A DNA stretch of 64,000 nucleotides, taken from Haliotis asinina. Lineage: Eukaryota > Mollusca > Gastropoda > Lepetellida > Haliotidae. Made by a program: the position numbers and the translations under genes. The stretch is from NCBI RefSeq assembly GCF_037392515.1, contig NC_090291.1:43827001-43891000 (forward strand). The letters run 5' to 3'. The notes under the pieces are model-generated. The model was not told the DNA's origin. It was given only the letters and a program-made list of their open reading frames with translations, and did not search any database. Shown piece by piece: positions 22,815 to 63,874 of this stretch; the first letter of the stretch is position 1, and every line of letters begins with the position of its first letter.

Positions 22815-22916
22815 ATGAAGCTCTCTCCGGTCTGGCAGAACTATGCGTATTTGAAGAACCAGCAGACTGTTCAGAAAGTTGCAGTTCAAACTGCCCTTGA
22901 AGAGGCTGAGGAGAGG
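22815..22916 (+). CDS. Large gene, first exon a
   Basis: ATG plus 33 codons (MKLSPVWQNYAYLKNQQTVQ then a charged helical end, EEAEER) to a phase-0 donor AGG|GTAGGT. The frame is closed upstream, so this is a true start exon if used. Confidence 0.7.
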
Positions 22917-25900
22917 GTAGGTCGTGTGATACCGTAGTTATATCAGAGTTAGCCATCTTGAATTTGATTCAAACTTGCGCAATCGTGATCCCAAATCCGA
23001 GTGTAATATTTCAAGACAACGATGCGGCAAAGTTTGTTAAAGAGATGCTATTCTTAGAATCCCGACCCGATCTGGTTGACTTTTTCACCTTCAGTCATTG
23101 TTTATGTTCCAAAAGGGAATGTGTTTTGATGGAATGGTCCAGCACGGATGGGTGTTATGGCGTAGTGGCGGGAGCTTTCCAAACATTACTCTTAAAAGAA
23201 AAGGTTAAGAAAATGGTTTCTTCAACCATCCTTTTCTTGGAATGGTTTTCACGATTGGTGCAAGTTTGACACACCTGTGCAACCAGACAATAGCATTTCC
23301 TCCGTGGGCATAGATAAGGTTGCGTGTGCCTTGATGATTCACAGTAATGCCATTGTCTGGTGCGTCTACCACTACCGTTCCGATTTGCAACTCGGACACA
23401 GTGACCAGTTTGTCTGGTCGTATCCGTCCTTTATAGTAGGAAGTAGAACATTTCGTCATAGATCAAAAGGAATATTTATTTCATTCTATATGGTTTCCAA
23501 GATAGAATTCGTTTAGTTTGGCATTTCCCCTGCGCTGACTCAGCGGAGGATTCTTGGAAGGCCACCAGATTTCGTAGGAGAAGCAAGTGTTTGTTTTTGT
23601 CTCCAAATTTTTGGCACAAGCAGGGATAAACAAGATATCTCCGGTAAAACAGGTCAGGCTATCGCATGTAACTCATCTTGTAAATCTTCGTCAAATTTGG
23701 AGGAAATAAGTTTTTTAAAATATTAATATAAAATCTTTTAGTGGTGAAGGGGCCATTGGAATAGCTGATCATTAATACTTAATAGCGAACGCTTGAACAT
23801 GTACATGGTCGTGTTCACAATGGTCGCTTGTGTTCCGATTTGCAAACATGGATCAAATTAAGAATGCATTCATGCAATTAATTAATGGTTTTAAACGACG
23901 AACAGGTGAGGCTCAGCGGGTAGCTATGACTAAGAGGAGGTTCTTCGCCCCCGGCTACTCAGTGGTAAGATTCACAACTTTCAACTAACACTCGGCGACC
24001 GTCATTTTGTTTCGCCAGACGACAGTTGGCAGCCATATTGGAATTTTTGACAACTTCTTTCTTAGAAACTCCAAAAATGACAAATGCCTTGCTTTAACGC
24101 TCTGGACGTCCAACATCGAGACATGACATATTTTCTATTTTTTGGAGTGATGATATCAGGTTGTCAAATGTTCCAAAATGTTTATATTGCTCTGCAGCTT
24201 CATGCAGGGCGGTTTGGTAGCCCAACGGTTAAAGCGTTTGCTCGTTACACCGAAGGCGCGGGTTCGGTTTCCCACAAGGGGACAAATGTGTGAAGCTCAT
24301 TTCAGGTCTCGTCATAGTGCTGGAATATTATTAAATGCGGCGTCAAACACAACCTATTCATCAGCTTCGTGGACCTTCGTTTGAAGCCGAACCCTGTCGC
24401 TGCGTCAAGCTTTACATATTCAATGAATAGGGCATTGTTCCATTCACTAATCTTTGTGCTATTTTTTTCTCTCGCTTCTTGTAACATAGACTTGCGACTA
24501 TCGTGGTAGAAAGAGAATATTATGGGAAGAAGCCCTATCTCCTTTTTTGTCACACTACACATGCATGGTGTCAAATGGTTCTTTGAGAACTGATATTGAC
24601 GGAATGTTGTAATGGTAACTGTTTATGTACAGACGGTTCCTTGCTGGATTTACTAAAATCTTCCACTACATGTTTCCCAGTTTGCTAAAAGACTAACACA
24701 TATCAAACACGTGGTTTCTCTAGCAGATGTTACTTTAAGGAGGCGGTGGTGTAGCCTAGTGGCTAAAGCGTTCGCTAGTCCCGCCAGAGTGGCAGGTTCA
24801 ATTCACCATATTTGGTACAATGAAGCCCGTCGTGATATTGCTGGAATATTGCTAAATGTGGCGTACAATCATACTCATTCGCTCCCTTGGTTATTTCTTC
24901 AGAATATGTCAGCTTGGAGTGTCACGTACTTTTAGCACCCGGTGACATCCCTGATTTTCATCCATGAATTTATTAATATTTTACCTTTTACGTCCAATAG
25001 AATCAGATTGGGCGGATATTCGAGGCAGGTTACTCCCGGCTTAAACGTTTTTCAATTATTGTACTGTACTTATTGTATAACAGAAGAGGAACTGAGTGCT
25101 TCCTAAACAAGGTACATCTGCAAAACTAGTCCCTACATAGCTTTCTCGCTCTCGTAATAAGGTATGCTAATGGGTGTTATTACGTAGTTCAACGGTTGAA
25201 ATATCTGGCGCTGACAAATGCCGTTTGTTCGACAGAACCAAGATCGATTCCCACTTGTTCGACAGAACCAAGATTGAACCCCACGTGTTTAACAGACATA
25301 AGATTGATCCCCACTTGTTTGACAGAACTAAGACCGATTCTCTTTTGTTTGACAGAACTAGGTTCGATTCTCACATGTGTTCACCAAGTGATGCTAGCTA
25401 TATGTTGTACAACCACACTCCTTCACTGAAGTAGGAAAATGACCCGTAATTCCATGTTATTCCTCAATTACAGCTTAGTGTTGAGAAACAACTCGTTTGT
25501 TTGTCAGACATCTTTCTCGGCTTTGTTCCTCATCGGTTCTAGCTCTCTTTACAGAAGGAACTGCATTCCCCAGCATTTTCCCCCATCACACTCCCGCCCA
25601 TATTTGAAAACGCGCCTGTTGTGTCAGCGACCTCTGCCAAGAGTGCCAAATACCTACAATGCAAGTACCAAGTTGCCATGGAAACTTATGAGGATAGCGT
25701 TCTAGATATTCCATCCTGTTTTCGCAAGATACGCCAAAGATAACAAAGGCAAAGATCACACCGCAAAGCTTGGTGCATTTTGTTGCATATTCGTGCACTT
25801 GGATTAAACTATAAAACTTGGGCGCCAAAATCTGGTTTTATCTGGATGGATCCGAATGTTCATCCTCTCTGATATGATTACGTGGGTGTGTTTGCGAGAA

Positions 25901-28900
25901 TCTCAGTGACTCAGGATTGCTACTTCGCTACCTGTAGACGCACTGTTCCGTTATGTAGAAACTATATCTTTATATAGGTTGTGTGTGGGGGTGGGGGTAT
26001 CTGGTAATGCCAGGATAACCTTGTACTAACGGATGCACATGAAATGTATTAAATAGAGTTGAACCGCCGACAGTGATATCAAAAGGCGACCTTTGCACTT
26101 TGACTAAATATAGTACATATTTTTAAATGTGACACAAACGTAAAAAATATTAACGGATTGAGTTACATTCACGTGTATTTTCAATTTCATTGATTAAACT
26201 TTAAACTCATTTAGTCATAATCAGCTCTAAATAAAGTATGAAATTATATGAAGTTATTGCAAAGGATCTTTTCCGTAGATAACTATATTTGTTCCTGTGA
26301 ACACTATTGCTGTTTGAAGTACGTCTTCTGTGTCACGTGTTAATTAAGGTCTTCCAGCCTACTGGTATGAATCGATGTTTATCTTTAAGGTATCTGACTT
26401 ATTACCTCCCACCCACATCTCACGGACTGATAAGTTGCAATGTTATTTAACGCAGTGATAAATCCACTCACTTACCCACTTTGTACTATCAGAGTGAACT
26501 GTGAAAAGTCGTTTGGCGTCTTTCAACGACGGTCTGGTCTGGTCGTAATAGAGACCCGGGTCGACTCCCCATATGAGTACAATGTGTGAAGCCTGCTTCT
26601 GGTGACCCCCATCATGATATTGCTAGACTATTGCTATAAGCAGCCCGAAATCCTCTCTCACCAAATGCCTTTCACCTTTAAGACATAAAACATATGTATT
26701 TCATAAACAACCCAATATCACGTACATTGAAACAGAGGTTCTCTGCAGTATCCTAAACTGTAGTCTGTCGCACAGACCCCGACATAAATATAACCACGAA
26801 AACCCATGCAAGTTGGGAATATGTGGCAAGTCTAGATTTCAATAGTTTTAGAAAATGGGCTCCTTTCATCGCATTTGGAAAATATTCAGTTCAAATATAT
26901 GTAAACAATTCTGTCAAATATGTATTTCAGAGACTTGATGCTAGTTTACCTAAACTAACCGCCCTAGCTGGAGCCGGGGCCTATCAACCCACGTGGTTGT
27001 TTATGAGCCGAATAGTTCCTGTGTATCTCTTCGAGCCTACGTCAGTACAGCGAGGAGAATTGCTCTCGGTCGAGGCTATGCCTATATATACCTATCCCTT
27101 CTTCACTCATGTTGAGAGCCAGCCGATGCCAGAATGTTGACTCGCAACAGATACATGCACTGCAAGACGCATATATCTGTCACTTCAGCATTCACTGTCT
27201 CATAGTGCAGCATTTATTCTTTGCCAAGGACGAACACAGGTATGCAGGTTTTGCACTTGGGGTATGTAAGGAAACGCGGAAACAGCTGGGTGGACAAATC
27301 ACAGCCAGTGTATATAAACGGTAACAGAACGCGTCCCTTGAAACCAAACAGAACCTGCAGCAAAGGGCTTTTTATGCATTGCAATAGATAGTCAAATTCT
27401 AGTCAATTCACCTTACATGAGAATATTGAGGCACTCAATCTCTACTTTAACGGGGTTCGGGTCAAAACCGTTGAAAATCATAAACATTTGGGATTAACGT
27501 TTTCAAAAGATTGTAAATGGTCTGACCACATTGATAATATTGTAAAAACAACATCAAAAATGATTTCTTCTCTACGTAAACTCAAATGATTATTACCGCG
27601 CTGTGTATTGAATAGAATTTATGTAATGTTCATAAGACCCCATTTCGAATATGCGTGTGAGGTATGGGATGGGTGTGCTCAATACCAAGCAAATAGATTA
27701 GAACAACTGCAATTAGAAGCAGCAAGAATTGTAACAGGTTTACCCAAATATACACATCATGAACATCTGTATTATGAAACTGGTTGGGAATCTTTAGCAG
27801 AGCGTAGGAGAAAGCGAAAACTTTGTCTTTTCTACAAAATACAGCATAATATGGCACCATCGTACCTTAATGATCTTGTTCCTGGGAAGGTAGCGTCAAA
27901 AAGTAGCTATAATCTTCGTAACTCTGACGATATCTCGCTTCCCTTCTCCCGATTGAAGTTTACTTATAATTCGTATTTTCCATCCACAATTAGAATGTGG
28001 AATGAATTTCCAGTTGAAGTTAGAAAAAGCGTGTCACTGAATTCTTTTAAATCAAATATTGTTGTAACACAAAACACAGCTCCCAAATATACTTTGATTT
28101 TGGACCGAGAATCACTAATATCACCCTTACAAAACTATGTTATATGTGTAGTCAACTGAATTACGATCTATTCCGTGCTGGCATAATAGATAACCCTAAA
28201 TGTTCTTGTGGATATATTTGTGAAAACTCTTATAATTGCCTATTTGACTGTCAACTATATACTCAACAGAGATCTGCCATGATGGCTAATTTACGCAGTG
28301 TTACCAATGTTACTATAAACTCTGATTTACTGTTACGTGGCAATGCAGATCTGACTGATGATGCAAATCAAAACATATTTAAAATTGTTCAAACATACAT
28401 TTGTCAATCATTTGTCAATGTTCTTAATTATTGCAATTGCCCCAATCTTTCTCATCTTTCTGTTCTTGTCTGTCCATCTTGTATAATGAATGTAAATAAT
28501 ATTATGAAAATACTACGGAGAAGGTGTTCTAAGTTGTATAACTTGTACCCAATCCTTTTCTCACGAATAAAATATGTTTAAAACTAAAAAAAAGTGTCGG
28601 AGGTGATTAAGGCGGCTGATTAATGATCTAGTCTAAACTTGAGCTGACACGAGTTTTCTCAATAACCCACTATGACGGTACTCATCACATAACGGTAGGG
28701 GGAACAAGGCAGATAAATATACTCGTCTCGTCGGTCTGCTCAAACCATTTTACTGACGGAGAAAATACATTAAAAGACGTATAGGAAAACCACGATAGAG
28801 TCAGGATGGTATCTTCCAGTCTTTCTGGCTGCTGGCGGTGGGTGGCCAATGATTAAAGTTTTTACTAGTCGCAGAGACGACACTGAACCAATTCCTCACA

Positions 28901-29917
28901 TACGGAGTTCATTCCTCCTATATCCGCAAAACTGTCAGTGGGAATTGGCGCGGCGTAAAATCACACTCACTGACCCTGTTTGTGAGTCATCCCTGTCACA
29001 CTGTTTCTCATCGCTTGTAGGAAACAGCTTTTATATGACATGTTTCCTCTTCTTAGCGAGTCTTATCTTGACGTGCAATCAATTAACATGGAGCTAAACA
29101 AAATTGCACCAACTGCATATTTCTTTAAATAGCTAGCATTCCATTTGTCTGATAAAACTCGACATTCCCTCCCCAAGAGCTCAGAACGGTGTCGGCCTCG
29201 TATGGTGTGCACAGGGAAGGTAAAAACATGGATACTAGCACTTCCGATCCGAGGGACTTGAGACTGAAAAAGGTACGTCTTGCAAATATGCGTGCACGTG
29301 TCCTGACAAATCTCATTCGTCAACGCTCGGTGTTTTCCGTTTATTGCAACGGACGTGTCCGATTGTCACAACGACATGCTTCAAACCTACAGCACCTTTG
29401 AAATTAGTTGTGAGTGTATCTCGTCGCTGATACTGACTCAGGCTTGATTTTCTAGATCGTTCATGACGTGAAATTGCTACCGGAACTGTTTACCTTAAAA
29501 GGTAACCGGCTGATGGGTCTTTGGAATAAATAAATAGCATTGACATAACAGTAGCTGTGGTCAAGAAATCAAGAGCAGTGTTTCCAAGAATATTTCATTT
29601 GTTGAGTAAGAACTTGGAGAAAAACCCTGCCTCTACTCAGTTACTCAGTATCAACGCATGGGGAAAAAGATAGATATTTAAATGGCTAAGCCGCTTCTAC
29701 AGATAGATGGGGGACCATATACACACTGCACACGGTGAACGCACTGTACATTGGTATTGCCCTAGAAGATGGCGTTCAAGACGAAACTTTCGGAGTAATA
29801 TGACACAGATTAATTTATACACAGATTAATATATGGCCGTCGAACGGAAACCACTTCATTATTACTGCAGGAAATAATGGCCATAAACCAAACGAAAACA
29901 AAACACAACATACGCAG

Positions 29918-29995
<78 letters not shown>

Positions 29996-50900: not shown

Positions 50901-53900
50901 AACAAGGGACAGCCTGTAGTTGTACAGGAGCGGCAAGTGGTTCGCTCCACTTACACATATATTTCAACACCAAAACGCGCGAACGTTCCTCCTCGCTATC
51001 GACTCCGCTCTCTGCGGTCTGCATATGCCACTTATAGAAATCCAAGAAGAGCAAAGGTGATGTGTAGTTCCTGTTTGGCTGTTTCTTAGTTCAGTTGGTT
51101 CGCTGTTGGGTTATCTTTGGCAAGCATATTTGAGTTCATGCTATCACTGGTTCCCGTAGTTTCCTCGGAACGTCAAAACCCTATTCCAAATTTGTCCACA
51201 AGAAAACCCTTGCTCTTTTTACACGGCTTCCCGTAGCGACATAACCGCTTCCGCTTTTGTCACTATAATGGTTCAGCATCAGCCCAATAACAAATATTCG
51301 CATTTGTTGGCTTTACTTACAACATGTTGATGCTTCATCTTGCATTCTTCAAGGGTTAAACTATTGAAAAGCCAGTGGCATATGTTGCTCTTTCTCTACT
51401 AATGCCACGTGGCATGCGACGATTGGCTAAACTGTTACTGTCCTTCATGTTCTTAATATTACAGCCAGACTTGGATTTGTTCACGCTAATGCTTGATCCT
51501 TTTTACAGTTACATTGTTTTCAGCGTAGTAATCGATTTACCCAGCATGCCACTTTCAGGATGGCCGCCGTTTTTACTTACAGCATTGTTGGCATGTGGAG
51601 CGGACATAGGAAGAACGCATGGGCATTACGTTACAAGTCAGGTGACCCATGAAGGGTGGCTGACTTCTCGGACGGACCAGTCGTTGACCCCAAAACTCAC
51701 ATTTAATTCTAATTCTGGTGTTAAACGGTACCACTAAACATCTACTGATATGTTCACACTGAGTCGACGAGAGAAGTCTGCATGCTCCCATAGGCACTTT
51801 CTTGTGGCATGACATGTCGAGTGAAAAGCGTTACTCGTGTTGTATAACACCGTTAGTCTGGGTACATGCCTCACCCGCCTGATCACTAACATACATCAGC
51901 CAGCCTTTGTCAGAATGCTTCTGTACGTTTTATGTTCATTGCATTTGTTTTAGTATCGTGGTATATGCATACGTACATATAATGATTGTGGTTATATTTA
52001 AAGTCTACATAAGCATAAAGAAGAAATACAAATTCCATTGCAATGATTTTATGATTTAAAGTATTTATTGCTCTTATGTTTAACGTTGTTTTATTATGTT
52101 GTTGACTAAATCATTTTTAACGATCTTAAAAGAAAATATACCATTTAACAAAGTGTGCATACCTTAATTTTTCTTCACCGGGTGAGGCATTTCCTTGTAG
52201 ACTGTGGGCCACAGTAAAACGAAGTAAACTTGTCCATCGGCAGTCACCAGGTGTCAGTACGTTGATACGTGTATATATAATAATTCTGTTATTGTGGATT
52301 AACAGAAAGAGTGCCATATATGGAATCATGGGCGGCTCCCCATATTCTGTAATACAATCCGTGAATATTAATGTGATAATGAGTCCAGTCGCCGATCATC
52401 AGTTACGTCAATGTCTATTCGTTCAACATTAAAGGTAAAAATTCAGAACATACTGAAACTGATATCCATCAACATCAAATTTTACCTTTGCCGCTTAATC
52501 CTTTTTAGCTATTGAGACAATCTACCTGTACATTTTAATAATCATTCCACGTGTTACCCAACGTTTGCTAAGGATCGTGTACTAGGGTAAAGTGACTACC
52601 CTGACACTGTACATGTTCCATGTATACTATTCAACGTTTGATAGGGGTCGTGTACTAATGACTTTGCATATGTAAAATGTATCTGCCTATCACAAGTTGA
52701 GCAGTATACATGTGATCATGTCTGTGACTCCGTCCTGGTATCAAGTTTTCAATTCATCTGTGGCCCACTTTATCCTGCCCTCGAATTTCATCCGTTTGCT
52801 TTTCACACAGGCCGCAATTGTTGCAAGCAAAGTTGAAGTTGAGCCCAGGAGGAAACGGCCACGTTCTAAGTTCGCCGCAGAAAAATTGCGAACTACTCGT
52901 GCAAGAGGCGAGGTAAAAACCCGTCCATTTGTAAGTGTGACCTTGGACGCCGGCGACCTTGGAGCCGAAAGGTCACGTGATGCATGGTCTTTGACTCGAT
53001 TGGTTGAAGGAACTGCCAGTAGATCATAGACGTTTCTATTCTTATTTGATACGCATATTGAAATGAGTAAATAAGAATAGAAATGGCGTGTATTTGTGTT
53101 ACACGTTACGTGAGTTGTCTTAATAAGCGACGCAATATGTTAGTGAAATATCTCCATTTAATTATGTCAGATGCGATTTGTTTTTAAAGCGAAAACCCTT
53201 CAGTCCAAACATGCATGTTCCTAATGTGTCTGTTTTTGCCAGTTGGCTTCTTCACTTCTTGGTGTGACACTGCACAGCACAAACATGAAAAACAAAGATT
53301 TTTTAAAGAGATCCTCTCGAATGTGAAAGCCATGACTGAAAACAAATCACGTCACATTTATATATCCCTTTCAGTACGAAATGGAAAACAATTCAGTTTG
53401 GAGGAAAACAGAAATAGCAAAAACTATTAAGGATAAATGATATATGCCCAAGAGTAGTGTAGTTAGGCTGCTTTCTTTAATTATTTGGTTTACGGATCTG
53501 TCTGCCTCAGTTCCGCATACGAGAAATTTCTTCATTTACTTTCAACATGTTAACTAATTTTTTGCAGTAGGGAAATGGGTAAATAATTTCAGTCACCTAT
53601 TCATTGCTTCTTCTCTTCTCTTCTCTTTTGAGATCACTTATATAGATTGTCATTTGAAAACGGTTATGGTAAATGTCTGTAAACCAAGAATTAAAGCAAG
53701 GCATTGCATTCTAGCAATAGCAGTAGCAGTAGTAGTATATTGACGCTTGTGCTTTAGCGGAATCCTTAATTTATCTTAATATCTTGATTTCAACAGTTAC
53801 CTCAATTAGAACTGGGGGAAGGTTCAAACAAAGTGGATCCTTCTTTAGATCTCCCCCAATTGAGGCGATCATTGTTACTGCAGGTATGTTTAAACAAATA

Positions 53901-56900
53901 TAAGGCATGTCCCATGTACCACTTCCATAGACACCGATCAGCACGTGACACGATCACCTGAAGAATAGTACTCCTAGTCTTCCGCATCTGCCTTCAAGCA
54001 CCAATTAATGACCTTCAAAGTAGATCACCGAACACCCAGTGTGATAATAACACACCTTGTATGGAACCTTCTACTGATAAGATCCCACCCAGTAACACTT
54101 CTTCTCTCTTCTGTCTCACGAATCATATCTTCGAGAACAAGCTCAAAACAAGCACTGAACAAGCCAAATATTAGATGACCAATAAAACAATGTTGGCGTT
54201 ATTCATTTCACTGTTGGGTTTTCAGGAGAAACGTTTGAAATGACAGCAACAAAGCTGTTTCCGTAAATATCGGAGACCTCTTCTAAAACCAGGGTCCATT
54301 TTTTTATATGAAACTGCATGACTTGAAGAAACGGTTTTTCATAATGAATGAATTCAGAAAACATAAGTCTGTCTTTTTCTTCTGCACATGATCATTAGTT
54401 GTCACGATGTTCATTTCATTCACATCTTCATTCTTGTCAGTCAGTATATACAATCCTACAGGCAGTTCCTTCTCAATCATTATGTCTGTATTCGTATGGT
54501 CACGTGAATGCATACCGTCATTTCGCTGAGTCAGCACATACGCACCGACTGCATTATGTTTCAGGAAAATGTGTACACCCAGCCCACCTCTGGACTCACC
54601 GCATCCAGACCACCCGTGGTAGGTCATTTTTAATGTGTACGTCAGTTTAAGATGAAATATACCATTCCAAAATAGTAGGGGATATTCCATCTTGCGAGCA
54701 TACCACCAGCCAATGTCAGTAAAGTAAAGTAATATATACAGATGAAACAGTTTCCCTTAATTTCTCTTCAGCATCTGTTTCGTCCTTGGCTGCATCATCT
54801 GCATTTTATAAATCTTGTAAATTCAATATCCCCTAATTTTTAATGGTATATAATGTCACCATTTATTATTTTAAAAAATCAACGTATATTTCTTTAGGTT
54901 AATCGCCATAGAGCAACATCGTCAATAGTGCAGCTATTCATGGCTACTCTTTTAAGAGAAATGTTTAATTCTGAAACTTAAATGATGGTGTAAGTGATTT
55001 TACGAGCGTATCAAGTTAAACCTATGTTGCATTCGGATTTCTAATTATCTGTACTTACATCGGATCTTAGAAATAAAGAAATGATTTTGTGGCATATTTT
55101 CGATAATTATCATTACCCATGATGTTTGATTCATCTGTTTTAAATGATTATCGTGGTATTTAAGCATCATAGTAACACTTGTCTTTCAGATAAATACATT
55201 CAGTTCTACACGATCTATAAAATATTAACTTAAATGTCGTGCACAGTTCTATAACAATCAAAATACACATCTTACTCAATCAATTACACACAATGTAAAC
55301 AATTTAGCGCTTCCTAATAACACAAACCTACACGTACTGCAGACCATTGCTTGTGTTTCTGTGAGTCATTCGTAACTACTTGTATCATTCCGGCAACCCG
55401 GATGGCGTCATGTACCACTCTCGGGGCCATGTTTACGACTGGGTTTTGTCTAAGCGCAAACGGGCATGGAGATGAAAACAATCTAGTATCATTAACAAGG
55501 AAAGATAACTCTGAATGTCCAAACATGGCTCTAAAAACAATACGGCCATTCTCTTTGCAAATATGTTTCCGTGTTGAAGGTTGTTCATCCTTTAGCTCAC
55601 AGTTTAAATTGTGTTTGCTATAGTTAAGTGAAGTTTCGAAGTTCAGTGGTCCCGCCATTTTCATGTTTTGAAATACGTATTACTACGCGTCATTTAATTG
55701 GTTTGCCACGATTCTTGGCAAAAATGGCGTACGAGAGGGGAACGAGTTTCTTGTAGGTCACGGAAAGAGATGAGTAGTTACGAATCTCTGTGAGTATATA
55801 CGTATGTAAGGGACTTTTGTGTCTCTGGTCTACTTGCATCTCAGAAGTATCAGCCGATCTTGATGTGGCTCAACACTTTTCAGAAATACGATGACCTGGC
55901 ACAGGTGGTGAGGAAAAATAGCGATATAGAGTATGACCTAGGCTTGACGTGGATACCAGTTTGATCTTTGGCATATTTGACATAAATATTAGGTACAGAG
56001 CATTTTATATTCTGTTTGAGACAAAAGGCACGTTTCAGTAATCTCTTCGAAATATAAAAATTCTCGGAATGTAAACATTTGGAGTTTTGGAAAAGAACAT
56101 CATTTTCAGGACTTTTTTATAGAATATGAAATGTTCACTCCTTACATGACATCGGTGGAAATATTGACCGAACTGGGATGAGATTTTACCTATTCCTTCA
56201 ATTCTATAGGTGAAATCCCATACTCAGTCGAGTATCCACCGTCATGTATTGTCAAATCTTCCTCCTCCTTCCCATGTTGCCAAACATAGCTGTTTGTTCC
56301 TCAGTACCCGCTAGACAACCTGAGATGGGCCTTCAAAGACCCGTTTTACTTTAACTCCAAATTGTATACGTAACCAAACGTTCAACTGATTCGCTCTCTC
56401 ACAAGTCGCAGCATACCATTGTGATGACCCCAAGTTTCAAATAACCAAGGTTTATTCGTTGCTTCCCTGTTCAATCACAATGGGTTGTGATCTACCCTGC
56501 ATTTGTGGACGTTCGTTTCAAGGCTAATACGGGTTATGGTGGCCCCGAATATGGATCTTGATCAGGTTATGTCTTTTTCAGCGCACCCCGAGGGCATTGG
56601 TAGGTATTGGCGTTCTGAGCAATAATAAGCACAAACTCAGCATCTTGGTTCTACGTTTATACTCAAAATGCACGGTCTACAGGTGTCCTACGATGTCTCG
56701 CTGCATGGGGACCGTACAACATCAAGTGAAGACGATTTAAGAATTTATATCTTCCCAAAGAACCTGTATCAGCACCGAGATCTGTGGATCTGATTATCCT
56801 AGGATGTGTCTTCAATCAATGTTTTCATATACGTTTCAATAAAGATTTAGTTCAGATATATTTATGCCAAAGAGCCAAGACTGAGGCTTCGTTGGTCCTT

Positions 56901-59900
56901 CGATTTTATATTATATACATGATGTATATCTTTTCACAGCAGTATTTTGAGAAATATTTAAATACAATTAGAATTAATGTTAATCAGCCAGTGTGCAAGG
57001 ACGAGAACGGAATATGTAACGGATCTGATGAGACGTAACGGTAACAAGATGGCGACCATACCACGACACGTGGATGACGACATTGAACAAATGAGACAAA
57101 TCGACACCGTGCATTTTGAGTGTGCGCCTGGCGTTGGTATTTCTGAGCAGCACTGTCCATTGGGGCATCGTCCTTTCTTGTTCTACTCATCTTGTTTATT
57201 TACTCATGTATGTCGCTTAGCAACGCTCTTTCTTCAGCGCTTCTTTGTTGTTGAAAATTGCATTAAGGTGAGGTAACAAACAAACATGTTACGACAATTA
57301 CAAACAATCACTTCTGCATTGACGTCTTTAAGGAAATTGTGCTGTACGAACTAGGTACAATTCTCCCATTTTCAGGACGTGCTGTACGTGTCTGACGTAA
57401 TCATTTCTATCATCACGTGATTATAACAATATGTTACATGTTCCTGTCTGAAATCTTCTTTGCTAATAACCCTTACAAACAACAAATTAAACCTCACGTA
57501 TTTTTGAGAAAGAAGAAGTTACAAGTATTTTTGTCACCGGAAGAAGTAAGTAATATTTGGGCTATTGATTAAGTCATGTTTTTTTAACATAAACTCAAAA
57601 CACCATGTGTTGTAATTCTAATCCTTCTCTCAGCTTCCATCTGGAACGGTAATCCTTACTGGATGGTTGCATGAAGCAAAGAGCCCTTTAAATGTATCAA
57701 AATTTTAGAAAAAACACTCTTCCCAATAATCCACCAAAATCTTCAAACACCTTCAAACCATAAAACATGAACATGTCACACAAACACATCACTAACACGC
57801 TCGTGCTAAGCGAGGTACATACTCGAAATACTCGTGAGCCGAATGTATTTACCGTCTTCCTCCTCCCACCAGCCCCTCCCATCAGACAGGCGAGCTATTC
57901 GAGATGTGGAGGGATTCACCAAACCTAGGAATCTACTGTCCTGGCAGGTGCGTCAGTTCGTATATCGTCTTCAGATGTTCATGATGTCAATCTTTGGTTC
58001 GGAGTGTGCATGGGATCGTCTCCACGCAACCCTGGGAGGATGGGGCTAGTATAGGAACAAGGACATTATCATTTCGTCATGCTGACTTGGGGCAACCAAT
58101 TTCAAACTTTAAAAGTTGTAGCCAATTCTTTATAAATTTTGGGACATTCTTAGGAATCAGTTCAAATTAAATAAACTTTTTTCTTAAAAGCCTAGGTAAA
58201 AAATGTTCAATATGGGAAGCGTTATTCTTGTCAAAGCAATTTTTTATAAATTAAACACGATTTTAGTAATTTTATGAATTCACACGCTACTTGTTTTGAC
58301 CTCAAACCAATCTGAAAATCTACTACCAAAACATCCAAGCTTCATTCTATCAGGTTTGTGTGGATAGTTTGAAAATATCAAATCACGCCTCTCTGTGACA
58401 TCCTAATAATAACAAATAAGACACATTTTTTCTAAGGCATTTTGGTCCTTTCTGGGCAAAAATGCACACTTCTTATCGAGTGCTGTCTAGTATAGTTTTG
58501 ACCATTGATTTACACAGACGTATTATTTTGTCATCAAATCATACCTTATGTCCGCATCAAAGCCTTACCACTTATGATTTGCTCATACACTGTAGGCTGT
58601 TTTTCTTTGTACAACATGAACAAGACACATAACAAGTAACATCGCTTCTGCGCTCATCTAACACATCTACCTGCGCTCAGCATATTAACTATAGATGCTT
58701 CGTTATGTTCAGCTTTACTCATCACGTTTACTGTTATATTTGTTTCAGCAAATTACACTGTTAATAACATCATGCTCGGCCACATGTTATGTTATTTTGT
58801 TAATGTCTTGGACGTTATGTTTACCATTGATGTTATTTCGTTAAACATTGGTTACTTGCATGAATATTGTCTATTGCATGACGGAAGCACTGAGAAGTAA
58901 GATCGGTTACAGCAGAACATCGTAATCTCGAGCCGGCTTTATCTTGAATGTACAGATATTTCGAACCTATTATCCGGTCATGACTGCTTCTCACTACGAG
59001 TATGTAAACATTCAAATGTACATGCATAGTGCCAGCCCGAAACTTGGACTCGGTTCCAACTTGATTCTACTAGAGTTTGACCTTTACGAAACCATTTTAC
59101 AAATAAAATCCGTTTGTAAATTATACAACGCAGTTTGGATGAATATTCACAGGCCTGATAATATTACGGTAGATGGTCTTAAGGAGTTCCTTCTAACAGA
59201 AATCAATCACATTTCCACGCTGTATTGTGCAGAGGGACTGAAGTCTTTAATCTACCTCCATAAATACAGCCGAATGGCGACAAATCAAGTGAATGTCATA
59301 ATCTACCAATATCCTTTGCGATAGTTAATACATACCAAGCCCGCGGTAAGGTGGTGGGACAGTCACGCGGTTAACACATTCGATCGTCTCGTCGAAGATC
59401 CAGGTTCGATTCCCGAATTAAGTTCAATATCTGGAGACCATTCTAGGTGTTGTGACGTTGCCCCATATTACAAAACGCGAGCTCACTGTATTCGCTCAAT
59501 TGTGCAAGGAGATCGTGTATTGGTAGCTGGTCGTGAAGTTAATATCGTTACACAAGTTCACAGATGACACTGGGACTTGCTGAAGTATTGGTAAGATAAG
59601 ATGGACTGCTTCCTGGGATATTCGACAGTACTAACATAGAACAAACACTCCCCGGTGTGAAAAGTATTAGTCATCCCATGAATACCCTTGTCAGTGTTAG
59701 AGTTGTATGTGTCCCATACCCTAGAGAATATATTAAAAAGGAGTCCAGCTCAGTTCTTGATAGATAAGGCAGTCTAGACTGCTCAGCTTGGAAAGTAAGA
59801 ACTGTTTTGGATCCTTTGAGATAACAGGTATGTATTCCCTTTAAGAATATATGCTTTCAAATCATATAATTAGAAGCGACAAAACCCTTTCCTCGTCTAG

Positions 59901-62900
59901 AACTTTATGCCTTTGATTAAACTTTAGTATCGTGTATTAGCTCCTGTGTAAGAATGTATATGGACTCGAAGGTTCGCCCTCTAACTAGTGAAAGCCATAT
60001 TCCACTCCCTTCCGAGCATGATTCTTGCATGTAATGTAACTAACTGCCTTGGATTTTTTCTCCGTTTATTTTCCTGACATCTGTATATTTCAGTTATCGG
60101 GTTTGTTGAAACGTTTTGAAAGTACAGATGTAAAAGTTTTAATAAAATTAATGAAACATGAAAACGTACGATTATATTTCATAACGTCAAGATTGCTAAA
60201 CAGTAAGACTATCAACCGGTCACAAAAGACTTCAATTATTGTTAAAAAGTATCAGTTCAAGGTCATATTGTGTTGGATGTTACGAATTGTTAAGATGTGC
60301 TCAGGATACAGGAAGTAGTCATGCAAGAGACTTTTAGCAGAAATAATACTTATGGAGTTGATTTTGTAACTTATTAATTTGCCAAAAATCTCCACAGTAC
60401 CGTCTGGACTCCCGTATGGACCCCGCTGATCTTATCTACAAGCCAGGATCATTCTCGCGCATGCGCGAGCAGGTGCGTGAGGCCCATGACAAGATGGACC
60501 GCCACCGTCAAATGCTTGACCGCTACTTGACCGAGAGTGGCCAGCCCCGTGACATACAGGGAAGTGTTCAGCGCAAGATGGAGGAGCTGGAGCGTCGTGA
60601 CCCGTATGTACCCACTACGTCACTTCCTGCCCACATTCCAGTTAGAGTTACCTCCCTTGCAGTTTGGTTTCATGTTGAACTGAGAGACGTTATATTCAAT
60701 ATGAAGCCTGTGGTGCGTTTTTCCTTTGAATATTGATCTGAACTGATTATGAATTTCTATTTATATTTGTATTCGAAATTATTATACTAAATGAAGAAAC
60801 GAAGATGCCACATTCAAGGGAGACAACTGTGATATTATAGTGTTTAGCCACACGAGTTTCGAATGCATATTTGGAACTTTAAGTATTTCAAATCCTAAAG
60901 AGAAATATCCTTTTCTGAAATCAAATTATAATTTATGGAAAGAAAGTTTTGATAATTCCTATCAAGATGTCAGATGAAGAAATTCGTTTGTATAAACCAA
61001 ATGCATGCACGTGTCTGATTTTTCTGTCGACTTTCCTCGTGAATTGTGCATGTTCTATCTTTTTTTTTGGTATTTTTTATTCTATTTTTTAAGTCGGAAA
61101 TATAAAATTACTATTGCAAATTCAATTAAATACTTTACAGTGGAATGCATGTGTGAGAGGAAAATAATGTAAAATTTATGACCAGGTATTGGAAATTTAC
61201 TAAAGCCTTTGACCCACAAAAGTAGCATGCAATCTCTTACCCATTTTCTATTTAGAGAATATATTCTTCTCTTCCCTTTTCTATATATCATGCACAAGCT
61301 CCCACATTTTGGTTTCACTTGTTTCAGTTCAAGGCTAGTGATAGCGTTATTGTTTTGTTTACTTCTTTATTCATAACTCACACTAGAAAACTTTCTTCAC
61401 CTTCACATTACTAACACTTAATTACTACCTAAACGATGTTAAACTTGTACTAAGTATTTATTAATTGTTATTTGTTATGAGATTAAACAGTGTTATTTGT
61501 TACGAGATTAAACTTGTTTATCGTTTACTATGTCGAGCTTTTCATGTTTCTCCTAGCAGACTTAAACGCTTTTACAAACATGTTCACAACTCACCTTGAA
61601 CTAGAACAGTGACTAGCGACTTAAACGCAGCCGTTGACTACAAGTTGCTTTGCAACTTAACCGGCTCTTTGTTTCCCTTTGCTGTGTGCTTAACCTATAC
61701 TTACGCTGAGAGCTTAAGTGTTTCAGAAGAAAACGTTGCTTATTAGAAAAGCGAGTCTAACTCTCGGCGGCATACAGTGATGAGGTCGTATGGCAATGGT
61801 GCATCGTGCTATCGAAATGTTTTAATTTTTTCTGACTTTTAAAGTTCTTACAGAGGCCCGGTGAGTGTGAGCGGCGATCGCCTGTCGGTATACAAACCCT
61901 CTCCCCGTGTGGTCGTAAGTTTTGCTTCTAGTTCAACTAACCCGGCACACTAAACACTGAAGACAGAAAAAACTCGTTAATCCGGACAAAACCTCATTTG
62001 GATTTAGGAATTTCTAGATAAACGAATCACAGATACGTAATAATATACTTGGTAGTTTACCGCCCTTGCACTGATTGTCCAGAGCTTGTATTTCCAGATT
62101 GACAGGGTTCGGAAAAGAAAGGTTCACAGTATCTCAGTTTGCTTTATTGAAATATACATATGTATCAACAAATTTCTTTCCATCACATATTACTTTATTA
62201 GATATTTTGGGGATAATATTGGAGACACACTTCATAGTAATAGTAAAATTAGACTTAATTTCACATAGTTTTGAAATTAGTAAATGAATGTTCAATACAA
62301 TAGTATGTTTAAACGTTATGCATTTATATGTAGTATTTGCATTGAGACGAGGTAAGGAATGCATGTGATTCTGTAACGGCGTGTGCGGATTAACAATTGG
62401 TAGTGACATCCTTTCACTTAATCCATAATCCTAACGTTCTGAAAAATTATGGATACTCACCAACGCACAAAACAAATAAAGGTCAAATATGTTATTGATG
62501 CACAAAACCGTACACATCCCCCAACCCATGTCAGTATTTACCTACATATACCGATGTCCATAGTAGACGCCTTCCCTGTAATAAACAATGCTTGTCATGG
62601 AAATAACTGCAATTTAGAAGAGAATCGTAATTTTATTAAAGTGTATTGACATTATGCAATAATCACCAGTCGTGATTAGGAAGCGGGTGGCCAAGAGGTA
62701 ATAGCACTGCTAAGAGTCCTGGTTCGATTCGCAAAATGACACATGAAACCAGTTCTTGATATTCTGGGAGGAATTTTAAGGGAGTTTTAATTATGATTAT
62801 TTCCTTTTTAAATTTAAATGCTTATGAGTTTCTTATCTTAACTGGAAGGGGGTTCGGTGGGGTAGATCTGTGTGCATTGTAAAGTCACCTTGGCGATAAA

Positions 62901-63874
62901 TGTCGCTTTACATCGCGATTGCCATGACAAGTATTGTATTAGATACACACTGTCCTGTTTGCAGTGGGGCGTGGCACCACTTTTGTATGTATGTATGTAT
63001 GTATGTATGTATGTATGTATGTATGTATGTATGTATGTATGTATGTATGTATGTATGTATGTATGTATGTTCGTTTGCGTGCGTGCATACGTGCGTGAGT
63101 GAGTGCTTCCCTTCGTATGTAAACATATATCGCTTGAAATGTATAATGGAATATACACAATATATCGGTATGTAGTTTGAAATTAGTTTTAGCACTAAGG
63201 ATACTGTACATAGATATAGATTTGCACTTCCATCTACGTTGAATAATCGTCATTTGAAAAGAAGTAAACTTCATTAAGTACTTTGTGTAAGACGTTATCT
63301 ACAATCAAACTTATTGCATGTTGTGGATTCATGCCAGTTTTTTAAAATGCTTTAAATATTATACTGTTTTCCTAACGAGTTCATTCCATAGTATTGTTAA
63401 AGTAACATTCTTCACTGTTTAACCGTTGTTGCTTCATGAGTTCAGCCCAGTTTTTGCACTAACGTCAGCTTTCTGCATTAAAATAAGTCAACGAGAATAT
63501 ATCGAATATGTCAGGGACCTGGGCACAGCAGGAGTTTCCAGAAACTACCGTCATCCATTGTCATTTCAAGAACGTTTCATGTTACACGGTAAAGCCTTTA
63601 CAACACCGGTAGTGTGATTTGTAAAACATATTTTTGATGACTTGGCATCTTGGTCAGACACACGACCTTGACACTGACAGTTGATTTCCGAGTTTCTGGA
63701 ACTAGCAATGTCATGACGTCACCCAAAGCATATGACGTCACCTATTGTGCTATACCTTGACAGAGCCAATACGGTATGCCCCCAAAACAGCCCGTCTCCG
63801 AACTGAGGAGGAGATTGAGGCGCACCGTGTGTAGGAGCCGAGGCGATCCCAACTATTACAGGGACCGGGAGTAA
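22815..63874 (+). CDS. Large unnamed Ser/Pro/Tyr-rich protein, about 1,098 aa, at least 13 coding exons with alternative starts
   Basis: Model: 22815-22916, 43951-44059, 46075-46220, 48251-50074, 50613-51056, 52811-52912, 53797-53883, 55884-55907, 56582-56599, 57873-57947, 60398-60618, 61854-61914, 63791-63874. The frame is continuous to TAA. Nearly all junctions are phase 0; the exceptions are phase 1 between exons 2 and 3 and phase 2 between 11 and 12. I do not recognise the protein. It has no signal peptide or membrane segment. Features: three RLLGGY-type repeats (about residues 226-350), a basic block (about 381-424), a Tyr/Asp-rich stretch, a Tyr/Pro-rich stretch (PYAYYPAYYSP), RRKRPRSK, and a helical charged stretch in exon 11 (about 998-1045). 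Composition suggests a flexible cytoskeletal or scaffold protein, which is inference only. The microexons and the exon 11-12 junction are the least certain parts. Confidence 0.72.
22917..23847 (+). other. Intron between first exons a and b
   Basis: No repeat is recognised. Open frames occur on both strands at 22958-23269, 23277-23516 and (minus) 23205-23459. None has a recognisable domain. Confidence 0.5.
23848..23964 (+). CDS. Large gene, alternative first exon b
   Basis: ATG opens 39 codons (MDQIKNAFMQLINGFKRRTG ... FFAPGYSV) up to a phase-0 donor GTG|GTAAGA. It has the same exit phase as exons a and c, so each can splice to 43951. Confidence 0.65.
24206..24352 (+). repeat. SINE-A, full length
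   Basis: GGTTTGGTAGCCCAACGGTT head, GGTTCGGTTTCCC B box and GGAATATTATTAAATGCGGC tail. Confidence 0.85.
24741..24889 (+). repeat. SINE-A, full length with short internal deletion
   Basis: GGTGGTGTAGCCTAGTGGCT head, GGTTCAATTCACC B box and CGTGATATTGCTGGAATATT tail; the middle body is shortened. Confidence 0.85.
25178..25390 (+). repeat. Five-unit 30-bp tandem repeat built on a tRNA-like B box
   Basis: Units at 25232-25381 read TGTTCGACAGAACCAAGATC plus GATTCCCACT with drift. The last unit carries a canonical B box (GGTTCGATTC). The sequence before it (about 25178) resembles a SINE-A head (GTAGTTCAACGGTTGAAATA), and CACATGTG follows it. The 86-codon frame across it (repeating LFDRTK) is a by-product of a 30-bp unit being divisible by three. 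Confidence 0.75.
25672..25685 (+). promoter_or_regulatory. Exact RFX X-box match
   Basis: GTTGCCATGGAAAC fits GTHNYYATRRNAAC. The surrounding 25550-25700 sequence (CTCCCGCCC, GAAAACGCGCC) is richer in C and CpG than its surroundings and could be a promoter, but no first exon that splices in phase was found. Confidence 0.45.
26547..26668 (+). repeat. SINE-A, 3' two-thirds
   Basis: GACCCGGGTCGACTCCCCAT, then TTCTGGTGACCCCCATCATG and a tail ending CTCTCTCACC. Confidence 0.8.
27395..28600 (+). mobile_element. 5'-truncated LINE (non-LTR retrotransposon), 3' part of the reverse transcriptase ORF
   Basis: About 1.2 kb. It encodes the post-catalytic region typical of Jockey/CR1-like LINEs: KHLGLTFSKDCKWSDHIDNI, then VMFIRPHFEYACEVWD, QLEAARIVTG, ETGWESLAERRRKRKLCLFY, and a Cys/His end (PKCSCGYICENSYNCLFDC). 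The catalytic domain and endonuclease are absent. There is an in-frame TGA near 27587 and a frame change near 28120-28150, so it is inactive. The 3' end is an A-rich run at about 28583-28595. The exact clade is not determined. It lies in the intron between first exons b and c. Confidence 0.88.
28834..28975 (+). repeat. SINE-A, strongly diverged
   Basis: GGCGGTGGGTGGCCAATGAT head and GGCGCGGCGTAAAATCACAC tail, with the middle poorly conserved. Confidence 0.6.
29228..29272 (+). CDS. Large gene, alternative first exon c
   Basis: ATG plus 14 codons (MDTSTSDPRDLRLKK) to a phase-0 donor AAG|GTACGT. It is short, so chance is possible, but the donor is strong and the phase agrees with exons a and b. 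TTTAAATAG about 110 bp upstream could serve as a TATA-like element. Confidence 0.55.
29920..29994 (+). repeat. (CT)n(CA)n compound microsatellite
   Basis: About 40 bp of CT followed by about 36 bp of CA. Confidence 0.95.
30090..30208 (+). repeat. SINE-A, 3' half
   Basis: CACCCATGTGGGTAAAACATG, TTCCGGTGTTTCTTGATATTG and a (CACT)n tail. Confidence 0.75.
30838..31015 (+). repeat. SINE-A 5' half followed by SINE-B head fragment
   Basis: The SINE-A part at 30838-30945 reads ACGGTAGCCCAATGGCTAAA to TTTCTAGTGTTCCCGATG. From about 30957 the sequence matches the SINE-B head (CTCATGTTTGTGGTAAGAGG, CGACTGACGGAT). The junction may be a chimera or two decayed insertions. Confidence 0.6.
31625..31712. 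mobile_element. MITE-like element, partial
   Basis: AAGATAACTTTAGTGC...GGTTAACCTTAGTAAAGG...CGTGAAAGGAGCC matches one end of the 20375-20612 family. Confidence 0.6.
32890..32903 (+). promoter_or_regulatory. Exact RFX X-box match
   Basis: GTTGTCATGGAAAC fits GTHNYYATRRNAAC. No first exon is seen directly downstream. Confidence 0.35.
33201..33306 (+). repeat. 53-bp tandem duplication
   Basis: Two units starting CTTAGCGCCACACCAGACG and ending GAGTTACGGTCAC or GAGTTACGATCAC. Confidence 0.85.
33970..35336 (+). repeat. Minisatellite, 46-bp unit made of two 23-bp halves, about 30 units
   Basis: Half-units TCTAAGAGTCATAGTGTCAG(ACA) and TCTAGGAGTTACACTATCAA(ACA) alternate. Early units (33970-34330) are diverged and shuffled, while later units (34400-35300) are near-identical in groups, the usual edge-decay pattern of tandem arrays. 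The spacers are not unique, so this is not a CRISPR array. Confidence 0.93.
38307..38456. mobile_element. Foldback MITE with CAGGG ends
   Basis: Two arms of about 55-60 bp form a near-perfect inverted repeat around a loop of about 35 bp. The outer ends read CCAGGGCCCC and GGGGCCCTGG. CAGGG termini suggest the hAT superfamily, but no clear 8-bp target duplication is visible. The right arm has six extra bases. There is no coding capacity. Confidence 0.8.
38482..38553 (+). repeat. SINE-A, 3' tail
   Basis: TCTCGCACCTTGATGTTGCTGG through CGGCGTAAAACCATTTTCATTCGC. Confidence 0.7.
38677..38684. promoter_or_regulatory. CRE palindrome
   Basis: TGACGTCA in a locally GC-richer patch with CATCTG and CCGCCGTC. 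Confidence 0.3.
39003..39049 (+). repeat. 24-bp tandem duplication
   Basis: GTTCTACAACACGTGTCACAAT occurs twice in succession. Confidence 0.85.
39508..39610. mobile_element. MITE-like element, partial
   Basis: AAGCACTAAGGTGATCGTAAG and GGCAGCCTTACTGCAATGTT match the 20375-20612 family; the right end is lost. Confidence 0.55.
41858..41871 (+). promoter_or_regulatory. Exact RFX X-box match before candidate first exon d
   Basis: GTTTCCATGGCAAC lies 52 bp before ATG 41923. X-boxes of ciliary genes usually lie within a few hundred bases upstream of the start. Confidence 0.5.
41923..41991 (+). CDS. Large gene, candidate alternative first exon d
   Basis: ATG plus 22 codons (MSAAKLGPSCMDAVFLGGMW, RVS) to a phase-0 donor TCA|GTAGGT, the same exit phase as first exons a-c. 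The X-box just upstream adds support, but coding bias in 23 codons is not decisive. Confidence 0.4.
42665..42786 (+). repeat. SINE-A, 3' part with expanded (CACT)n tail
   Basis: GAAGCCCATTTTTGGTGACAC, GACTGCTGGAATGTTGCC, then about 55 bp of CACT units. A (CAGACG)n run lies just before it at about 42552-42575. Confidence 0.75.
43570..43866 (+). repeat. 43-bp degenerate tandem repeat, about six units
   Basis: The unit begins GTATTACCCGTGTCAGA and ends TGTACTATAACCCCT, with point drift and small indels. A remnant (TTTAACCCCTGTATTACATG) reaches to within 50 bp of the exon 2 acceptor. Confidence 0.8.
43951..44059 (+). CDS. Large gene, common exon 2
   Basis: Acceptor TGTTTCAG|AGC in phase 0 and donor TACG|GTAACT in phase 1. 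Encodes STRGHSVLRRGTYGASPRRV and an FGDAFAPEYIPRR continuation. The frame is also open upstream to ATG 43903, so transcription starting in the intron could give yet another N-terminus. Confidence 0.78.
44060..46074 (+). other. Intron 2 of the large gene
   Basis: It contains a SINE-B fragment (45118-45250) and otherwise nothing recognised. Confidence 0.65.
45118..45250 (-). repeat. SINE-B, head half
   Basis: CATGCGTCAACCAAGTCAGA, CCACCCGATCCCGTTCGTCG and CGGATCTTCATGGGC in reverse order of the element. Confidence 0.75.
46075..46220 (+). CDS. Large gene, exon 3
   Basis: Acceptor TCTGTTTTCAG in phase 1 and donor ATC|GTGAGT in phase 0. Encodes 49 residues rich in Ala, Asp, Thr and Ser (STAEEYALDSAITNATSYSD). 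Confidence 0.8.
46221..48250 (+). other. Intron 3 of the large gene
   Basis: 2.0 kb of AT-rich sequence with no repeat or exon that I can support. Confidence 0.65.
48251..50074 (+). CDS. Large gene, exon 4 (608 codons)
   Basis: Acceptor GTTCATGCAG|CCC and donor AAG|GTAATG, both phase 0. The ATG at 48245 lies in the acceptor region and need not be a start. Codon use is clearly coding. Three internal repeats start RLLGGYIPR (codon at 48572), RLLGGYVPP (48755) and RLLSGYIPS (48872), each followed within about 15-25 residues by SGTASP or SGTQTP. A basic segment (KRRPKVLGTKMRVGNYMDRL, near 49040) is followed by an acidic Tyr-rich segment. Read-through past the donor ends after 22 codons. No known domain is recognised. 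Confidence 0.88.
50075..50612 (+). other. Intron 4 of the large gene
   Basis: 538 bp with no repeat recognised. The minus-strand frame at 50433-50936 is a shadow of exon 5. Confidence 0.7.
50613..51056 (+). CDS. Large gene, exon 5
   Basis: 148 codons, phase 0 on both sides (TTCCTCGCAG|GTT, AAG|GTGATG). Starts VSSEAYATPKTSVAARRVAR. It has a Tyr/Pro-rich centre (SYPYAYYPAYYSPRPRVVLV) and a basic end (RYRLRSLRSAYATYRNPRRA). Confidence 0.85.
51057..52810 (+). other. Intron 5 of the large gene
   Basis: No repeats or exons are supported. The 120-codon frame at 51375-51737 is hydrophobic but has no homologue that I recognise. Confidence 0.6.
52811..52912 (+). CDS. Large gene, exon 6
   Basis: 34 codons, phase 0/0 (TTTTCACACAG|GCC, GAG|GTAAAA). 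Very basic, with RRKRPRSK, which could be a nuclear-localisation-like or polyanion-binding patch. It can be skipped without changing frame. Confidence 0.75.
53797..53883 (+). CDS. Large gene, exon 7
   Basis: 29 codons, phase 0/0 (TTTCAACAG|TTA, CAG|GTATGT). Begins LPQLELGEG and repeats LPQL near its end. Confidence 0.7.
53884..55883 (+). other. Intron 7 of the large gene
   Basis: 2.0 kb. A minus-strand open frame at 55314-55664 is listed separately. No repeats are recognised. Confidence 0.55.
55314..55664 (-). CDS. Possible small minus-strand gene, 116 codons, unknown
   Basis: Complete frame from an ATG (MKMAGPLNFETSLNY...) to TAG. The second ATG has a strong context (AAAATGGCGG). Composition is mixed and protein-like, without low complexity. 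No domain is recognised. A CCAAT-type ATTGG lies about 35 bp upstream on the other strand. It may equally be a chance frame or one exon of a longer gene. Confidence 0.3.
   Translation of the reverse strand: MKMAGPLNFETSLNYSKHNLNCELKDEQPSTRKHICKENGRIVFRAMFGHSELSFLVNDTRLFSSPCPFALRQNPVVNMAPRVVHDAIRVAGMIQVVTNDSQKHKQWSAVRVGLCY
55884..55907 (+). CDS. Large gene, microexon 8 (24 bp)
   Basis: CTTTTCAG|AAA TAC GAT GAC CTG GCA CAG GTG|GTGAGG gives KYDDLAQV in phase 0/0. A 21-bp version ending at CAG|GTGGTG is also possible. Confidence 0.5.
56305..56373 (+). CDS. Candidate alternative terminal exon of the large gene
   Basis: After a good acceptor (GTTTGTTCCTCAG) the phase-0 frame reads YPLDNLRWAFKDPFYFNSKL, then YT and TAA. 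The only GT donors (TT|GTATAC, AC|GTAACC) leave in phase 2 and would put later exons out of frame. The simplest reading is an alternative C-terminus after KYDDLAQV, with AATAAA at 56838-56843 as its poly(A) signal. Confidence 0.42.
   Translation, partial: YPLDNLRWAFKDPFYFNSKLYT
56582..56599 (+). CDS. Large gene, microexon 9 (18 bp)
   Basis: TCTTTTTCAG|CGC ACC CCG AGG GCA TTG|GTAGGT gives RTPRAL in phase 0/0. Both splice sites are good, but at six codons this rests on them alone. Confidence 0.4.
56838..56843 (+). terminator. Candidate poly(A) signal for the alternative 3' end
   Basis: AATAAA followed by TTTAGTTCAGATATATTTAT, 465 bp after the TAA at 56373. Confidence 0.35.
57873..57947 (+). 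CDS. Large gene, exon 10
   Basis: 25 codons, phase 0/0 (CCTCCCACCAG|CCC, CAG|GTGCGT), encoding PLPSDRRAIRDVEGFTKPRN, LLSWQ. A second frame is also open but would lead to an early stop in exon 11. Confidence 0.72.
57948..60397 (+). other. Intron 10 of the large gene
   Basis: 2.4 kb with one diverged SINE-A (59348). The 126-codon frame at 58944-59324 is not supported by splice sites or domains. A possible small exon at about 60094-60129 (LSGLLKRFESTD) is too weak to call. Confidence 0.55.
59348..59495 (+). repeat. SINE-A, full length, diverged
   Basis: GGTGGTGGGACAGTCACGCGG head, GGTTCGATTCCC B box, and a decayed tail. Confidence 0.7.
60398..60618 (+). CDS. Large gene, exon 11 (charged helical segment)
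   Basis: Acceptor AATCTCCACAG|TAC in phase 0. Encodes YRLDSRMDPADLIYKPGSFS, then a highly charged helix (REQVREAHDKMDRHRQMLDR, later QRKMEELERRD) that looks coiled-coil-prone. The end is uncertain. AC|GTCACT at 60618 gives the phase 2 needed by exon 12, but it is a weak donor. Read-through would end at 60734-60736. Confidence 0.7.
60619..61853 (+). other. Intron 11 of the large gene
   Basis: 1.2 kb of AT-rich sequence. No repeat or further exon is supported. Confidence 0.6.
61854..61914 (+). CDS. Large gene, exon 12
   Basis: Acceptor TTCTTACAG in phase 2 and donor GTC|GTAAGT in phase 0. Encodes GPVSVSGDRLSVYKPSPRVV after a split Thr. Confidence 0.65.
62682..62775 (+). repeat. SINE-A-like fragment
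   Basis: GGGTGGCCAAGAGGTAATAG and GGTTCGATTCGC; tail not recognisable. Confidence 0.55.
62985..63070 (+). repeat. (TATG)n microsatellite
   Basis: About 21 uninterrupted units. Repetitive Tyr-Val-Cys-Met and Thr-Tyr-Ile-His frames on both strands are artefacts. Confidence 0.97.
63714..63740. promoter_or_regulatory. Pair of CRE palindromes
   Basis: TGACGTCA at 63714-63721 and 63733-63740, each in the context ATGACGTCACC and 19 bp apart start to start. They end 50 bp before the last exon. Confidence 0.45.
63791..63874 (+). CDS. Large gene, last exon
   Basis: Acceptor CCCCAAAACAG|CCC in phase 0. Encodes PVSELRRRLRRTVCRSRGDP, NYYRDRE and TAA. Arg-rich, with an RGD. A donor-like GTGTGT at 63827 could instead splice on to exons beyond this window, but the frame to TAA reads like coding sequence. 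The acceptor has a weak pyrimidine tract. Confidence 0.58.
   Translation, partial: PVSELRRRLRRTVCRSRGDPNYYRDRE

Follow-up and report, generated by a model that had tools for sequence, protein, structure and literature searches.

An abalone gene with a frame-coherent exon chain, three candidate first exons and a layout that would permit several forms of a probably mostly unstructured protein

Does a 41-kb stretch of the abalone genome hold a single gene that makes many forms of one protein, by choosing among first exons and by skipping internal ones? An earlier note on a 64,000-nucleotide stretch of Haliotis asinina DNA (contig NC_090291.1, positions 43,827,001 to 43,891,000; hereafter the window) had proposed such a gene, reading several alternative first exons into one phase-0 junction, followed by a chain of skippable phase-0 exons. 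The body of the gene, at 43951-63874 on the forward strand, is real: twelve exons (exons 2-13) with GT-AG sites join in a single open frame that runs to a stop at 63874. The chain, its frame, its phases and its layout can be read directly from the DNA; with one first exon included, the junction phases are 0,1,0,0,0,0,0,0,0,0,2,0.

Exon 2 (43951-44059; acceptor 7.7, donor 6.4), the common acceptor of the first exons, enters in phase 0 and leaves in phase 1, and exon 3 (46075-46220) enters in phase 1 and leaves in phase 0. Seven exons with phase 0 at both ends follow: exon 4 (48251-50074), with 608 codons inside a 637-residue open frame; the Tyr/Pro/Arg-rich exon 5 (50613-51056; 148 codons, acceptor 12.2); exon 6 (52811-52912; 34 codons), with a basic patch; exon 7 (53797-53883; 29 codons, donor 9.9, acceptor 5.3); the micro-exon 8, which starts at 55884 and ends at 55904 or 55907, because its donors stand in tandem three bases apart (6.1 and 9.1 bits) and give 7 or 8 codons; the micro-exon 9 (56582-56599), whose 6 codons read RTPRAL and which is probably the six-codon exon of the earlier note; and exon 10 (57873-57947; 25 codons, acceptor 9.5, donor 10.3). 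The charged helical exon 11 (60398-60603) enters in phase 0 and leaves in phase 2, exon 12 (61854-61914; acceptor 6.5, weak donor of 4.9 bits) returns from phase 2 to phase 0, and exon 13 (63764-63874), the last coding exon, ends in TAA. Since the donor of exon 11 is weak (3.5 bits) and the frame stays open beyond it, intron retention would give another C-terminus; reading through (60604-60736, forward strand) adds 44 codons before a stop at 60736. In the flank directly downstream of the window, AATAAA occurs about 730 nt past exon 13 (L003:603) and ATTAAA at L003:460, hexamers of a kind that is present in the introns as well.

We trained a codon model on exons 4 and 5 of this gene and tried it on nine other body exons, taking 2000 random open intron fragments as the null. 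The scores of exons 2, 3, 11 and 12 were each reached by none of the 2000 fragments, and those of exons 13, 6 and 10 by 0.05%, 0.2% and 3.3%, respectively. The 7-codon form of exon 8 has a score reached by 8% of fragments, and that of exon 7 is not distinctive (19%). Codon scores back seven of the nine exons tried, and exons 7 and 8 rest on their splice sites. Splice sites and coding content were also scored jointly in a scan of 41.8 kb on both strands, in which the best phase-0/0 exon of the reverse strand reached 16.1 (16.5 with all three symmetric phases counted). Exons 4, 5, 6 (24.7), 8 (18.4), 9 (17.3) and 10 exceed 16.1, as do two further candidates at 54565-54618 and 60473-60712, and exon 7 falls below it, scoring 9.9 in its own frame and higher, 16.3, in a phase-1 reading. 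The two micro-exons stand above simulated chance: among 300 simulated intron sets, 2 attained the score of exon 8 and 7 that of exon 9. The nulls are first-order Markov sequences, which may flatter real sequence, and simple models were used for splice sites, starts and background.

Can the exons of the middle be skipped? As had been claimed, exons 4-10 are all in phase 0 at both ends, from 608 codons down to 6, and any of them could be left out without loss of frame, as expected for a cassette-spliced gene. Ten of the twelve junctions are phase 0. If phase 0 is assumed to occur at a rate of 0.42-0.55, the chance of this count is 0.4-4%; without the two micro-exons the count is eight of ten, with a chance of 2-10% at the same assumed rates. 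Symmetric phases permit skipping and are by themselves weak evidence that it happens; the excess is modest. Three starts and seven frame-neutral exons would allow up to 384 forms in principle, and on the sequence isoform diversity of this gene is plausible. Near exons 4-10, six splicing motifs showed no clear enrichment, TGCATG occurring 4 times against 2.5 expected and the other five being no clearer.

Both further candidates of the scan lie on the forward strand and would enter and leave in phase 0. The one at 54565-54618 (ENVYTQPTSGLTASRPPV; score 24.2, which none of the 300 simulated intron sets attained) is an uncertain additional cassette exon that the earlier note had not listed, and the one at 60473-60712 (score 18.4) would be an alternative form of exon 11. 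A 150-residue antisense frame (54304-54756, reverse strand) overlaps 54565-54618. Itself included, this frame has at least 148 genome matches at E <= 1 (the best 150 of 356 candidates were scored); among the matches listed, nearly all lie within its first 40-50 residues, which form a repeat whose end adjoins 54565-54618, and a few run across the candidate exon.

The first exons are a harder matter. ATG-to-phase-0-donor stretches on the forward strand within 22-43.9 kb were ranked by their start context, by a codon score whose model was built on exons 2-6 and 11, and by donor strength, and the best three coincide with the start exons named in the earlier note: firstly, 1c (29228-29272; 15 codons, MDTSTSDPRDLRLKK; donor 9.5 bits), with a score of 15.8; secondly, 1b (23848-23964; 39 codons, ending RFFAPGYSV; donor 8.3 bits), which was ranked from an inner ATG at 23926 that leaves 13 codons and scores 13.5; thirdly, 1a (22815-22916; 34 codons, MKLSPVWQNYAYLKNQQTVQKVAVQTALEEAEER; donor 8.4 bits), with 11.4. 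At the same donor threshold the next candidate scores 0.1; lowering the threshold brings a fourth forward candidate at 27851 (9.6), and over a wider range of 5-43.95 kb 1a-1c remain on top, followed by 13841 at 9.6, with a reverse-strand best of 10.1. In five control scans, run in the other phases and on the reverse strand, no candidate exceeded 10.6, and in 200 first-order Markov sequences the third-best score was never reached and the best score once. As features of the DNA, more than one candidate first exon carries a strong in-phase donor to one acceptor, and a single gene in which three plausible alternative first exons lead into a common phase-0 junction fits these statistics.

Taken singly, the start exons are less distinctive: random open fragments reach the codon score of 1a in 8.7%, of 1b in 15.8% and of 1c in 2.6% of cases, so that only 29228 (1c) falls under the 5% level among the starts. 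Two more starts that had been proposed did not stand out above chance and were rejected, namely a first exon at 41923 (ranked 13th at the lowered threshold, with a donor of 3.2 bits and a codon score reached by 34% of fragments) and an intronic ATG at 43903 (codon score reached by 28%). All five have an in-frame stop upstream, 12-168 bases away (27 nt for 1a), and within 500 nt TATA[AT]A was seen only near 1b, at -121. Searched against the genome, the peptides of 1a-1c found only their own places, the 15-residue 1c being near the limit of the search (E 8.7). Between 1b and 1c, forward open frames at 27590-28581 resemble, as judged by eye, the terminal part of a retrotransposon reverse transcriptase; they gave no Pfam match.

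A simpler account would have one promoter and constitutive splicing: one start exon would be used, the others being chance or 5' untranslated sequence, and the phase-0 run would reflect a general excess of that phase. Plain counts of distinct phase-0 donors after an ATG lend it something, for at thresholds of 6, 8 and 8.3 bits the forward-to-reverse counts are 8:4, 4:3 and 3:1, respectively, with no clear forward excess, and the modest size of the phase-0 excess points the same way. This account does not sit well, however, with the finding that the top three candidates of all six strand and phase scans are forward and in phase 0, nor with a third-best start score absent from every simulation, and we regard it as possible but doubtful. 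That two or more genes are present, with 1a and 1b in another gene and the body starting at 29228 or at exon 2, is very unlikely: introns of 20-21 kb between 1a/1b and exon 2 and an acceptor-like site inside 1a, which would begin an exon at 22839 (score 15.6), speak for it, but from 1b to exon 2 no phase-0/0 candidate rises above the reverse-strand best of 16.1 (a scan of equal-phase exons only), and 1b ends in FAPGYS while exon 2 holds FAPEYI.

What would a gene of three promoters encode? Assembled from start 1a and without exon 9, the protein has 1095 residues, a pI of 9.8 and a GRAVY of -0.73. Its body is rich in Ser (12%), Pro (9.8%) and Tyr (7.2%), as had been noted, and in Arg (10.5%) too, and it has one Cys. 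By charge and hydropathy it falls just on the disordered side, by a small margin (0.419 vs 0.430), and is probably mostly unstructured. Over 11-residue stretches the start exons reach a hydropathy of 0.7 at most, and they therefore hold no signal-peptide-like stretch; their peptides have pI values of 6.0, 11.5 and 8.3. Short motifs recur in the body: RLL[GS]GY[IV]P occurs three times in exon 4, confirming the triplicated RLLGGY-type motif, where none of 20000 shuffles held even one, and SG[TS]x[ST]P occurs four times, a number equalled or exceeded in 0 of 20000 shuffles. The basic patch of exon 6, PRRKRPRSK, resembles what we take to be the consensus of a nuclear localisation signal. In exon 11 the charged helix holds up as a prediction, AlphaFold2 run on the single sequence placing helices at residues 18-47 and 53-67 with a mean pLDDT of 75.

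The earlier reader had recognised no family in this product, and that verdict stands so far for the parts searched, with no Pfam match and no significant PDB match. The Pfam scan covered exons 4 and 5, the 1095-residue protein with 1a as its start, and the C-terminal part, and found no family; at E up to 10 the 1095-residue protein still gave none, in a search whose filters drop most matches above E 0.1. Sequence searches of the PDB gave no match for exon 4 or exon 5 and, for exons 7-13 without exon 9, two matches at E 0.54 and 2.5, neither significant. An ankyrin match of 1a with exons 2 and 3 (E 1.2) was taken as chance. In the 1.14-Gb genome exon 4 found no place but its own at E <= 0.001, exon 5 had one other match (E 4.4, 27% identity) and the C-terminal exons one other (E 0.65); for the parts searched, namely the starts, exons 4 and 5 and the C-terminal exons, the genome holds no clear paralogue. 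With exon 4 as the query, viral contigs gave 5 pattern matches and bacterial contigs 16, of which none was confirmed, and tRNA and Rfam searches found nothing. Literature searches returned nothing on RLLGGY or a repeat string of this protein and nothing on alternative first exons in abalone, and among the papers listed on mollusc, abalone or Haliotis promoters and splicing, or on alternative first exons of disordered proteins, none was about this gene, as judged by titles and the openings of abstracts.

Genes of this layout are common among animals, and the architecture is therefore not new. Isoforms of 4.1 proteins differ in an unstructured N-terminal domain, and these proteins carry a FERM domain; Pfam also holds an NHS model. 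The protein described here, assembled with 1a as its start, gave no Pfam domain, unlike 4.1R and 4.1G, and no match to a model of the Nance-Horan syndrome (NHS) family. NHSL3, which is disordered over most of its length, is reported to have three start sites that give alternative first exons, and one of its isoforms, a short one, is without two internal exons (PMC11696792). Protein 4.1R/4.1G is reported to occur as isoforms and to have an N-terminal domain that is unstructured (PMC3166722). The likeness to NHSL3 and the Nance-Horan family is one of layout only, a parallel in working that does not imply descent.

As to how the layout is used, we infer, and consider reasonably probable, that promoter choice sets the N-terminus of a disordered scaffold and that cassette splicing trims its middle. 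The gene would encode a basic, Ser/Arg/Pro/Tyr-rich, largely disordered intracellular scaffold; three promoters would supply N-termini of different charge, each spliced to exon 2; and some of the phase-0 exons, chiefly exon 6 with its basic patch and the two micro-exons, may be cassettes by which the central part of the protein is adjusted, with exon 4, the largest, and exon 11, which carries the helices, being presumably constitutive. Since neither Pfam nor the PDB offers a family for it, the protein is a candidate lineage-specific scaffold of an abalone-like gastropod. A stronger version, in which it would represent an undescribed molluscan or lophotrochozoan family of disordered scaffolds that vary charge and cell location by promoter choice and exon 6 skipping, strikes us as unlikely; if it were true, start exons spanning pI 6 to 11.5 and the NLS-like patch of exon 6 would set charge and location. 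The interest of the locus lies in the unplaced protein, its layout being ordinary, and exons as small and starts as distant as these can escape automatic annotation.

Several other features were seen in the window, its surroundings and the genome. A 250-residue open frame at 8262-9014 (forward strand) gave no Pfam match; on the same contig, at a distance of about 0.5 Mb, lies a diverged relative (31% identity, E 1.3e-10), and among the best 150 of 3184 candidates scored at least six more match its last 40-80 residues more weakly. On the minus strand of L002, open frames at about 5.9-7.0 kb and 8.1-8.3 kb look by eye like a proteasome beta-5-like subunit. Directly downstream of the window, two mutually related forward frames (L003:4422-4838 and L003:8167-8598; 26% identity over 129 residues, pairwise E 4e-11) are helix-rich by eye, and the helix of exon 11 showed no relation to a downstream helical frame. 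Elsewhere in the genome, hemocyanin sequences make an abalone-like vetigastropod, close to Haliotis, the likely source: 16 matches to PF14830, the molluscan hemocyanin model, form two clusters of eight on one contig (G000:C2 96.255-96.318 Mb), the pattern that a tandem pair of hemocyanin genes with eight units each would give; 14 control genomes had none. One hemocyanin functional-unit segment, compared by eye with PDB entry 3j32, presumably from Haliotis diversicolor, differs at 9 of 100 residues.
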